From NCBI RefSeq assembly GCF_028993615.1, contig NZ_CP118632.1, forward strand, positions 3,410,001 to 3,474,000: DNA of 64,000 nucleotides. The letters run 5' to 3'. The stretch's first letter is position 1. Each line of letters begins with the position of its first letter. Shown here piece by piece: positions 1,978-3,875 of this stretch. This stretch comes from Herbaspirillum sp. WKF16 (lineage in GTDB: Bacteria; Pseudomonadota; Gammaproteobacteria; Burkholderiales; Burkholderiaceae_D). Under the pieces are notes generated by a model. The model ran no database searches. It worked only from the letters and a program-made list of their open reading frames with translations, and was not told the DNA's origin. Position numbers and translations under genes: made by a program.

Positions 1978-3012
1978 TCAGCCGAAGTAATTCAACCCCA
2001 GCGCCGCATTCACCTCCGACATGGTCTGCGCCGCCACCGCGCTGGCGCGATCGGTGCCGCGCTTCAGGATGGCCATGACTTCGCCGCGGTCGCGGGCGAA
2101 CTCTTCGCGGCGGGTGCGGATCGGCCCCAGCATTTCCTGCAGGATGCCTTCCAGGCGGCGCTTGACCACGCTGTCGCCCAGGCCGCCGCGGGTGTAGTGC
2201 GCCTTGAGCTCGGCCACGGCGTCGCGGTCGGGGTCGAAGGCGTCGAGGAAGGTGAACACCACGTTGCCTTCCACCTGGCCCGGGTCGTCCACGCGCAGGT
2301 GGTTGGGGTCGGTGTACATCTGATGCACGGCTTGCTTGATTTCCTTGGCCGAGGCGCCCAGGGCGATGGAATTGCCCAGCGACTTGCTCATCTTCGCCTT
2401 GCCGTCGATGCCCGGCAGGCGACCGGTCTCGGACAGCACTTCCTTGCATTCGACCAGCACCTCGCGCCCGACGGTGGCGTTGAATTTGCGCACCAGCTCG
2501 TTGGTCTGCTCGATCATCGGCAGCTGGTCGCTGCCCACCGGCACCAGCTGGCCCTTGAAGGCGGTGATGTCGGCGGCCTGGCTGACCGGATAGGTCAGGA
2601 AACCGGCCGGGATGTCGCGCTCGAAGCCGCGCAGGCGGATCTCTTCCTTGATGGTGGGATTGCGCTCCAGGCGCGACACCGTCACCAGGTTCAGCAGCAC
2701 CATCGACAGCTCGTAGAGCTCGCGCACCTGGGACTGGATGAAGATGGTCGACTTCTCCGGATCGATGCCCACGGCGAGGTAGTCCAGCGCCACTTCCAGC
2801 ACGTTGTCGGTGACCTTCTGGTGGCGGCCGACATTGTCGGTCATGGCCTGGGTGTCGGCCAGCAGCAGGAACTGGTTGGCGGTTTCCTGCAGCGCCACGC
2901 GCGACTTGAGCGAGCCGATGTAATGGCCGAGGTGCAGCGGCCCGGTGGGACGGTCGCCGGTGAGGACGGTGGGACGTGCTGCGGAAGTGCTGGCTGGTGC
3001 GTTCGAAGACAT
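1978..3012 (-). CDS. trpS: Tryptophanyl-tRNA synthetase
   Basis: This class I aminoacyl-tRNA synthetase charges tRNA-Trp in the cytosol. The HIGH motif appears as HLGH in [12 protein letters not shown] near residue 30, and the KMSKS loop as [10 protein letters not shown] near residue 210. Length is normal for bacterial TrpS. Two in-frame ATGs lie six bases apart. The second (3012) is preferred because AGGA sits six bases ahead of it, whereas it abuts the first (3018) with no spacing. The leader carries a short frame with tandem Trp codons and a terminator hairpin (see 3140-3190 and 3066-3091), which suggests transcription attenuation by charged tRNA-Trp supply. A terminator closes the gene on the far side. 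Confidence 0.97.
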
Positions 3013-3041
3013 GGTCATTCCTGATCGTTTATCTGTCTGGA

Positions 3042-3051
3042 ATGCCGCCGG
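3042..3051 (-). promoter_or_regulatory. Second copy of the trpS terminator 3' arm (candidate competing arm)
   Basis: On the transcript this is CCGGCGGCAT, identical to the 3' arm of the upstream terminator hairpin. The hairpin's 5' arm could pair with either copy. Pairing with this second copy would disrupt the terminator stem. The copy lies about 30 nt ahead of the trpS start. The pairing competition is an inference. Confidence 0.4.
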
Positions 3052-3065
3052 TCCCGAAGCGTAAA

Positions 3066-3091
3066 AACAATGCCGCCGGAACCGGCGGCAT
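3066..3091 (-). terminator. Terminator hairpin in the trpS leader (candidate attenuator)
   Basis: Arms of 10 bp, ATGCCGCCGG and CCGGCGGCAT, with a 2-nt loop are followed on the minus strand by TGTTTTTAC. It acts only on the minus strand, because the plus strand has no T run. It lies about 55 nt upstream of trpS. The gene before it already has its own terminator at 3271-3294, so this hairpin must act on a transcript that starts in between. Confidence 0.7.
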
Positions 3092-3139
3092 CACATGGTG
3101 AAACTGTGTGAAAGCGAATCACTTCGCGGGCCGCCCGGG

Positions 3140-3190
3140 TCAGGCGCGCCACCAATGCTGGATTATCGCAAGTTGAAGTCGGAAAAGCAT
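3140..3190 (-). CDS. Candidate trpS leader peptide with tandem Trp codons
   Basis: A 16-codon frame reads MLFRLQLAIIQHWWRA, with adjacent TGG codons at positions 13 and 14, two codons before the stop. It ends 49 nt before the terminator hairpin at 3066-3091, the usual geometry of ribosome-mediated attenuation (compare the E. coli trp leader and the Phe-rich pheM leader of pheST). A TATACT -10 element lies seven bases ahead of the ATG, so the message could be leaderless. No Shine-Dalgarno sequence is visible. The reading frame is seen directly. Its function is inferred. Confidence 0.6.
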   Translation of the reverse strand: MLFRLQLAIIQHWWRA

Positions 3191-3197
3191 GGCGGCG

Positions 3198-3206
3198 AGT
3201 ATAGCA
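3198..3206 (-). promoter_or_regulatory. Extended -10 promoter element for trpS
   Basis: The minus strand reads TGCTATACT, an extended -10 of the TGnTATAAT type. Transcription would begin near 3191, at or next to the leader-peptide ATG. No convincing -35 hexamer is seen, as is common with extended -10 promoters. Confidence 0.5.
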
Positions 3207-3270
3207 TCCCGGCGGCACGATGTTGCGGCGCATCGCGCGCCGGCGCCGAAAAAGCGGCGGCGCGGGCAAT

Positions 3271-3294
3271 AAAAAACCGCGTCCGTGGATGCGG
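3271..3294 (-). terminator. Terminator of the glycine-zipper lipoprotein gene
   Basis: An eight-pair stem (CCGCATCC with GGACGCGG, one G-U pair) is followed on the minus strand by TTTTTT. It lies just downstream of the stop at 3315. Confidence 0.7.
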
Positions 3295-3314
3295 TTGCGG
3301 CTGGGCGCGACGGC

Positions 3315-3875
3315 TCAATAGGCGCCCGGGGGCGGGCCGTAATATCCCGGCGGCGGACCGTAGTAGCCCGGCGGCGGAGGCGGCGCGTAGTAGTAGCGGC
3401 GCGGGTGGTAGGTGTAGGCCGTGGCCTGGCGCTGGGTCTCGACCTGGTTGCCCTTGCTGTACATGCATTGGGTGTAGGTCATGTCGTAGCGCTGCTGCAT
3501 GGAGTAGTTGCCGCCGGCGGCCGCATTGCTGCCCGCCGCGCTGCCCACCAGCAAGCCGCCGCCGGCGCCGATGGCCGCGCCGGCGCCGGCATTGCCCGAG
3601 GCGGCGCCGATCAGGGCGCCCGCCACCGCACCGACGGCGGTGCCCACGGCGGCGCTGTTGGCGGCGTTGTTCTGGGTCTGCTGGGCCTGGCCGCCGATGG
3701 CGTCCTGCGCATACTGCTGGCACAGCTGCTGGTCGGCGCGGAACTGCTCGTAGCTCTTGTCCTTGCCCGGCATGGCCATGACCGAGGGCCCGGTCGGCAC
3801 GCTCACGCAGCCGCCCAGCGCCAGCAGGGCGCCGATGGCGGTGAGCGCGCCGGCTGTCTTGTAGATGGGTTTCAC
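3315..3875 (-). CDS. Glycine-zipper (YMGG-like) lipoprotein
   Basis: The 186-residue protein begins at a GTG with AGGA seven bases upstream. An upstream in-frame ATG at 3905 would add a basic tail ahead of the signal peptide and is not preferred. The signal peptide ends in the lipobox LGGC with Cys23, so it should be lipid-anchored, probably in the outer membrane. Residues of about 65-115 are rich in Gly and Ala with GxxxG-type spacing, the glycine-zipper pattern of YMGG/Gly-zipper families. The last 40 residues are Tyr/Pro-rich (repeats of PPPGYYG). It is followed after 70 bases on the upstream side by another envelope protein gene in the same direction. The role is unknown; envelope structure or stress is a guess. 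Confidence 0.8.
   Translation of the reverse strand: MKPIYKTAGALTAIGALLALGGCVSVPTGPSVMAMPGKDKSYEQFRADQQLCQQYAQDAIGGQAQQTQNNAANSAAVGTAVGAVAGALIGAASGNAGAGAAIGAGGGLLVGSAAGSNAAAGGNYSMQQRYDMTYTQCMYSKGNQVETQRQATAYTYHPRRYYYAPPPPPGYYGPPPGYYGPPPGAY

Follow-up and report, generated by a model that had tools for sequence, protein, structure and literature searches.

Amino-acid attenuators are usually taught as four-strand devices that act on transcription only and start from a leader led by a Shine-Dalgarno (SD) sequence. In Streptomyces, ribosome-mediated attenuation of an auxiliary tryptophanyl-tRNA synthetase (TrpRS) gene is, going by the title, the subject of a 2010 study by Vecchione and Sello. A classical attenuator had also been predicted upstream of the Streptomyces TrpRS gene, trpS (Seliverstov et al. 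2005, PMC1262725). In Bacillus subtilis, ribosome stalling on the upstream ORF (uORF) of vmlR prevents termination, a hairpin beyond the terminator partly sequesters the SD, and pairing in the read-through RNA was proposed to open this SD hairpin (Takada et al. 2022, PMC9226507). The word trpS is absent from the main text of a survey of premature terminators (PMC2965389). No trpS attenuator in betaproteobacteria was found in the open-access literature searched, and an earlier prediction is possible.

Here, we describe the trpS locus of Herbaspirillum sp. WKF16, read from a stretch of 64,000 nt that is referred to below as the window. Judged by its arrangement and that of its relatives, the region ahead of this gene very probably controls trpS by ribosome-mediated transcription attenuation, with charged tRNA-Trp as the signal sensed. 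A second gate, acting on trpS translation and coupled to the attenuator, has in our view an even chance of existing. In the sections of the literature covered, the closest parallels are the trpS attenuators of Streptomyces and vmlR of B. subtilis. The former likewise lie ahead of a TrpRS gene, but they belong to Actinobacteria, no coupling of a fifth strand to the SD is described in the covered sections of PMC1262725, and the gene controlled here is not only an auxiliary copy. In vmlR, as is predicted for trpS, a hairpin beyond the terminator sequesters the SD, and the opening of this hairpin by read-through pairing is a proposal for both genes. In contrast to trpS, however, vmlR senses antibiotics, has a uORF with an SD and is an ABCF gene of Firmicutes, whereas the coupling strand described here has its partner in the terminator arm and loop, and two Trp codons serve as the sensor. 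One result from vmlR counts against a second gate at trpS: disruption of the SD hairpin (SL-4) reduced induction without any rise in leaky expression (PMC9226507). The S. meliloti trpL attenuator also has a Trp-codon leader RNA that begins at its ATG, as is predicted here, but it controls trpE(G) in alphaproteobacteria, and no strand 5 is mentioned in the covered sections of its description (PMC7298713).

Organization of the trpS leader

All leader elements were located by direct reading of the minus strand from 3206 to 3012, and those marked below were also placed by folding to the minimum free energy (MFE) or by alignment. Strands are numbered from the leader ORF towards trpS, and a pairing is named by its two strands.

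3206-3198, minus strand: extended -10 (TG-C-TATACT) of the leader promoter, TGCTATACT, read directly, its end 7 nt from the leader ATG
3190-3140, minus strand: leader ORF of 16 codons, MLFRLQLAIIQHWWRA and stop, predicted to be leaderless (no SD)
3154-3149, minus strand: adjacent Trp codons TGG TGG, codons 13 and 14, two codons before the stop, read directly
3150-3141, minus strand: strand 1, overlapping the second Trp codon, partner of strand 2 (MFE fold)
3137-3129, minus strand: strand 2, CGGGCGGCC, partner of strand 1 (protector) or strand 3 (antiterminator) (fold and alignment)
3091-3078, minus strand: strand 3, the terminator 5' arm and loop, ATGCCGCCGGTTCC, read directly
3091-3083/3078-3070, minus strand: terminator stem ATGCCGCCG/CGGCGGCAT, 9 bp with a GTTC loop, read directly
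3078-3063, minus strand: intrinsic terminator made of strand 4, CGGCGGCAT (3078-3070), and the U-run TTGTTTTT (3070-3063)
3057-3041, minus strand: strand 5, in which GGGACCGGCGGCAT (3055-3042) can pair with the whole of strand 3
3044-3039, minus strand: CATTCC, 5' arm of the 6-bp core within the 5:6 hairpin, read directly
3022-3016, minus strand: strand 6, AGGAATG, with the trpS SD AGGA (3022-3019); GGAATG (3021-3016) pairs with CATTCC
3012-1978, minus strand: trpS, type-1 TrpRS; the ORF opens at 3018 and the start is taken as 3012

The extended -10, the 16-codon ORF with TGGTGG two codons before its stop, the T run and the trpS start had all been listed in the initial annotation and are present in the sequence. 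Its second exact copy of the terminator 3' arm was recovered as an 11-nt repeat, CCGGCGGCATT, at 3079-3069 and 3051-3041, and its spacer segment able to pair with most of the terminator 5' arm as CGGGCGGC at 3137-3130. Two lengths had to be corrected: the spacer between ORF and terminator measures 48 nt instead of 49, and the terminator, with its T run as described, has a 9-bp stem with a GTTC loop instead of 10 bp. The leaderless start, the 1:2 stem over the second Trp codon and the role of strand 5 go beyond that annotation.

The trpS protein scored 235.5 bits against NCBIfam TIGR00233 (cut-off 176.75), and its nearest named records are from Herbaspirillum (L049, 97 % protein identity). An ATG also lies in frame upstream, at 3018, but the g23 relatives L006-L008 do not have it, and the ATG at 3012 was taken as the start. 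The same genome encodes a second TrpRS (L048; NF008922, 762 bits, cut-off 572), and no leader was seen in the 60 nt separating it from the preceding gene, which by eye we take to be a membrane peptidase gene.

In the mechanism proposed, RNA polymerase would start at or within about one nucleotide of the leader AUG, so that the ribosome would load on a bare 5' end. With enough Trp-tRNA, the ribosome would reach the stop codon and cover strand 2, strand 3 would pair with strand 4, and transcription would end at about 3066-3063. With too little, it would stall on UGGUGG and cover strand 1, strand 2 would pair with strand 3, no terminator would form and trpS would be transcribed. Within the read-through RNA, strand 5 would have two possible partners, the trpS SD/start (5:6, closed) and strand 3 (3:5, open); 3:5 would form where strand 3 had escaped the terminator, and RNA from leaky read-through in which the 3:4 hairpin is intact would stay closed via 5:6. 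In such a six-strand attenuator, strand 3 would end transcription with strand 4 and open trpS translation with strand 5, a single reading of Trp-tRNA would gate both RNA and protein and silence leaky read-through, and the arrangement would have been kept by compensating changes across several families of the order; on this fuller reading our opinion is evenly divided. Three parts of this scheme are predictions: its response to Trp, the site at which transcription starts, and how the translational gate is ordered and in which direction it acts.

The leader belongs to a large alignable family, appears to begin without an SD, and serves an aminoacyl-tRNA synthetase gene that is sometimes the only full-length TrpRS gene found in the genome. 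The fifth strand appears to add a translational gate. The family offers a natural mutational series for the coupling of transcriptional and translational attenuation, and the system bears on the control of an enzyme by the molecule sensed, which that enzyme makes.

Leader loci and alignments

The 190 loci comprised 47 from the family, 80 named, 23 more and 40 further loci. A detector recognised a leader in 135 of them (95/150, then 40/40). Eight without a recognised SD-like trpS start (L013, L022, L054, L057, L103, L165, L170 and L185) were dropped, and removal of 15 exact repeats from the remaining 127 left 112 distinct leaders. L106, in which strand 3 was not recognised, and L099, which has no strand 4, were then excluded, and a similarity filter reduced the 110 leaders left to 51 nonredundant ones, 48 of which make up alignment A2 (L015, L102 and L190 were left out).

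A second set was drawn from the hits of a covariance model, R1, that comprises strands 1-4 only. It started from 37 hand-chosen loci, six of which had no matching leader or trpS start and were dropped; 21 of the remaining 31 were nonredundant. One of these, L207, repeats L105 of the first set, so that 20 are new, and the z values reported for the second set include it. Nine of the 21 (L208, L212, L213, L218, L224, L227, L228, L234 and L236) lie ahead of degenerate or shortened TrpRS-like genes, as judged by weak TrpRS matches.

Distribution among relatives

A protein search of 116 genomes of the family yielded 47 type-1 trpS genes, 32 of which are preceded by a Trp-codon leader; the detector had marked 34 upstream regions, and L035 and L044 were rejected by eye. 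The 15 genes without a leader are L016, L021, L023, L024, L028, L032, L034, L035, L039-L042, L044, L046 and L047. Many named loci also have no such leader, including those of Acinetobacter, Collimonas and several Cupriavidus. The initial annotation had named loss of the Trp codons or the terminator stem in close relatives as evidence against its proposal; four of the seven g23/Herminiimonas loci fetched (L052, L053, L146 and L149, with L053 and L146 identical in reading) have no leader, the element being wholly absent there and not degraded.

With model R1, leaders were also recovered outside the family, in f5, f21, f31, f32 and f37, five further families of the same order. In f5, 31 of 43 genomes had a match at E<=1e-4, in 30 cases ahead of a TrpRS or TrpRS-like gene; in f31, 21 of 150 genomes had a match above 60 bits; and in the order-wide scan, 57 of 399 genomes reached E<=0.001. 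Weak matches were read where they had a locus. In the genome studied here, the trpS leader, itself part of the R1 training, scored 66.3 bits, and the next match, at 24.8 bits, had no Trp leader, matches being read down to the second-best two. Reading of L193, L194, L216, L219, L221-L223, L226, L270-L273 and L275-L277 led us to reject them as trpS leaders.

A full-length type-2 TrpRS was found in 18 of the 32 leader-bearing genomes versus 9 of the 15 without a leader (G102 has a broken piece only), and the view of the leader as the mark of an auxiliary, stand-by TrpRS was therefore rejected as a rule. Since no full-length type-2 TrpRS was found in the other 14 leader-bearing genomes, trpS with this leader is not only an auxiliary copy.

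Leader ORF and predicted leaderless start

Adjacent Trp codons occur in 100 of the 112 distinct leaders and a single Trp codon in 12, ten of which read WRRS or WRRC; the other two (L099 and L102, Undibacterium) are doubtful. Both Trp codons are present in all 26 same-genus loci fetched, 32 same-genus genomes having had a match. The residues ahead of the Trp codons vary widely among the 112 leaders.

With gaps of 0-14 nt scanned, the best -10 sits 6 or 7 nt upstream of the leader ATG in 112/112 distinct leaders, all of which had been accepted with a -10-like hexamer 5 to 8 nt from the ATG; the same spacing was seen in 29 of the 31 leaders of the second set. An SD-like motif precedes 3 of the 112 leader ATGs versus 108 of the 112 trpS starts, the latter having been picked with an SD-like motif in view. 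The leader ORF thus looks leaderless, its -10 spacing and absent SD fitting a transcription start at the AUG. Both B. cenocepacia and C. metallidurans are on record as having leaderless mRNAs (PMC4603805, PMC7563307), and at the places searched in the main text of both papers neither trp nor tryptophan is mentioned.

The S. meliloti leader that starts at its ATG gives rise to an RNA and a peptide that act in trans (PMC7298713), and the terminated leader RNA described here (ca. 128 nt), or its peptide, might act similarly to rnTrpL/peTrpL, with a free strand 3 pairing with strand 5 of other trpS mRNAs. The 3:5 complementarity does reside in strand 3. Yet strand 3 should be locked in 3:4 within the terminated RNA, the residues ahead of the Trp codons are not conserved, and each RNA always carries a partner of its own, which together make action in trans improbable. 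Hairpins also come easily in GC-rich intergenic DNA, and with 15 of 47 family trpS genes bare of the element, a chance ORF and terminator with no regulatory role might be envisaged; against such an origin, which we regard as extremely improbable, stand the conserved Trp pair, the promoter spacing and the covarying stems over several families.

Protector, antiterminator and terminator

In the attenuator proposed for trpS, the protecting 1:2 stem (3150-3141 with 3137-3129) appears in the MFE fold, includes the second Trp codon and, when free, is predicted by partition-function folding to average 8.75 bp. The core of the 2:3 antiterminator, 3135-3130 with 3089-3084, is paired in 48/48 leaders of A2; as it is nearly invariant, it displays no covariation. 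The 3:4 terminator helix covaries, one pair being C-G in 23 and U-A in 21 of the 48 leaders. The alignment of trpS leaders proposed in the initial annotation therefore upheld the Trp codons and the terminator, while the antiterminator was conserved in pairing but did not covary. Ribosome-mediated attenuation of trpS at Trp codons, as put forward there, gains support from this comparison.

Cognate pairing was also seen for an additional upstream stem (z -5.5, decoy -0.2), which joins the 5' half of the leader ORF to the part of the spacer that follows strand 2 and reaches the leader start codon in 18 of 51 leaders. AACCAT-class leaders such as L029 have a recurring spacer segment, AGTGATGTGAT, whose partner is a TCACAT near the beginning of the leader ORF; the two form an extra stem around 1:2.

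All six g6 (Janthinobacterium-type) genomes fetched (L015, L017-L019, L030 and L182; the L015 genome has another record, L071) have no U-run; the terminator hairpin is kept, and the leader ORF continues beyond WWSRS. This version is possibly a Rho- or translation-based form, or a product of decay. The T-rich tail is kept in L081 (Janthinobacterium fluminis).

Rfam searches gave an end-to-end match to RF00513 (Trp_leader) over 3160-3063, ending at the end of the U-run. This family is described as a tryptophan operon leader, whereas the match here lies ahead of trpS and scores 21.8 bits, below the gathering score of 41; no gathering-level match to it was obtained among nine relatives. RF02356 (BjrC1505) reached 23.3 bits versus a gathering score of 50. 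No T-box was present among the 10 matches up to E=5 at 2960-3330, and in the window only a tRNA reached gathering. A T-box or a known Rfam family was rejected, there being no match at gathering score.

Complementarity of strands 5 and 6

Strand 5 has two complementary partners, one made up of the 5' arm and loop of the terminator (3:5) and the other being the trpS SD/start region (5:6), and in the window the unbroken 3:5 helix can extend to 17 pairs (3092-3076 with 3041-3057). Cognate pairing was assessed by comparing the energy of each strand with its own partner to that with the partners of other leaders, permuted within promoter class (20,000 permutations). In the 51 nonredundant leaders, 3:5 averaged -19.1 kcal/mol for cognate versus -16.5 for permuted partners (z -8.3, 0/20,000), and 5:6 averaged -11.1 versus -9.1 kcal/mol (z -6.7, 0/20,000), with three decoy pairs at z -1.1, 0.0 and 0.0. 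Because the leaders are related, which inflates permutation z, decoy windows from coding regions are the better yardstick; these gave a mean z of 0.19 (sd 1.09, n=17) and -0.69 (sd 0.8, n=12). Compared with dinucleotide shuffles, p<0.05 was reached in 32/51 leaders for 3:5 and in only 7/51 for 5:6, so that the latter is a signal of the whole set and not of single leaders.

When strand 3 was cut to the bases after GCCGCC, which are mostly those of the terminator loop, 3:5 still gave z -4.9 in the first set, and z -3.5 (4/20,000) when permuted only within the same class and the same first two loop bases; within the same fine strata 5:6 gave z -5.1. The second set of 21 nonredundant leaders yielded z -6.4 for 3:5 and -5.8 for 5:6 (0/20,000 each; 18 decoys within 1.61), and z -6.7 for the last 9 nt of arm and loop with strand 5. 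As R1 was built without strands 5 and 6, this set offers an independent look, apart from the repeated L207.

In 46 of 51 leaders, the two pairings draw on common bases of strand 5. The overlap with 3:5 in the window is confined to 3044-3041 for the 6-bp core of 5:6 and amounts to 9 nt for the longer duplex. L029 combines CGCCTCTATC/CGATAGGGGC with ATAGGG/CCCTAT, and L025 and L166 combine CTCGAT/ATCGAGG with CTCGAT at the start codon. In L074, where strand 5 lies 127 nt upstream of the SD, ATCGAGG and CCTCGAT are both kept, but the start region is predicted to pair best with a segment nearer than strand 5. The g6 member L015 has a weak 5:6 (rank 0.89; one g6 genome tested). Complementarity in 3:4, 3:5 and 5:6 is borne out by comparison at the level of primary sequence, and the hairpin beyond the terminator (5:6) is predicted to be one that sequesters the trpS SD/start.

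These pairings bear on a simpler reading, in which trpS would have a plain transcription attenuator, strand 5 and 5:6 would form an unchanging structure with a role in mRNA protection or in keeping trpS translation low, and 3:5 would not respond to Trp-tRNA. A fixed hairpin leaves unexplained both the covariation of the mostly loop-derived bases after GCCGCC with strand 5 (z -4.9 and -6.7 in the two sets) and the sharing of bases between 3:5 and 5:6. The folding results below speak in its favour, and on balance we consider it possible but rather unlikely.

Folding and the proposed translational gate

Equilibrium partition functions of the full-length RNA were computed for the 51 leaders with or without a mask on strand 1 standing for the stalled ribosome. 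The mask raised 2:3 in 17 leaders and lowered it in one, and lowered 3:4 in 22 and raised it in six. In this equilibrium folding of 51 leaders, 3:5 was unchanged (up in 17, down in 11; p=0.28), as was 5:6 (up in 19, down in 20; p=0.66). A ribosome-dependent 3:5 switch at equilibrium was thus not reproduced by full-length folding with the mask. The lack of any such shift in 3:5 or 5:6 speaks for a plain attenuator; so does the window MFE, in which a shortened 5:6 coexists with 3:5.

Openness of the SD-AUG region rose from 0.40 to 0.44 under the mask (up in 20, down in 6; p=0.003). Holding strand 5 in 3:5 raised it from 0.40 to 0.58, compared with 0.52 for an equal mask elsewhere (37/51, p=8e-4); the gain in accessibility obtained by masking strand 5 is mostly generic. 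In the RNA of the window itself, 3:5 prevails both under the stalled-ribosome mask and in its absence (12.6 and 12.7 bp). For the coupled gate proposed above, 2:3 and 3:5 both need strand 3, and a persisting 2:3 would therefore leave 5:6 free to close trpS.

Related leaders

Several leaders related to that of trpS were seen in passing. In f5, L212, L213, L218 and L224 carry TrpRS-like ORFs of 285-316 aa, with LSLGQ or LSLGL in place of the TrpRS LHLGH, behind a related attenuator whose leader ends in FWYRSY. The L212 protein, the one checked, has no KMSKS and scores far below the TrpRS cut-offs; its product may not be an active synthetase. Weak TrpRS matches were also seen at L234, L236 and L239. 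A shortened TrpRS-like gene of 298 aa at L208 (f5) follows a leader ending in FYWWYRT with the same strand 5/6 architecture, and the leaders of L227-L229 and L231 (f5) resemble it, with weaker TrpRS matches. In g199 (L233, L235, L237, L238, L243 and L245-L247), leaders ahead of trpS have a single Trp codon followed by Cys-Tyr or Tyr-Tyr, with endings such as SWCYRHY, SWYYRQY and similar.

Other leaders precede different genes. L209 (G620:C1:96628-96711) has a leader with two adjacent Trp codons, MNISMTAVFLAGWWRA, and a terminator; the gene behind them encodes a sodium-dependent transporter (NF037979) that may carry Trp and be controlled in a like manner. The same genome has a second model match at G620:C2:107257-107340. 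L225 (G742) consists of the leader MIVYFQPSLSWWWHS and a terminator, and the gene behind it looks, by its sequence, like trpB. In f31, G938 carries two strong leader copies ca. 5.6 kb apart, at C1:779311-779398 and 784968-785055, scoring 66.1 and 64.5 bits.
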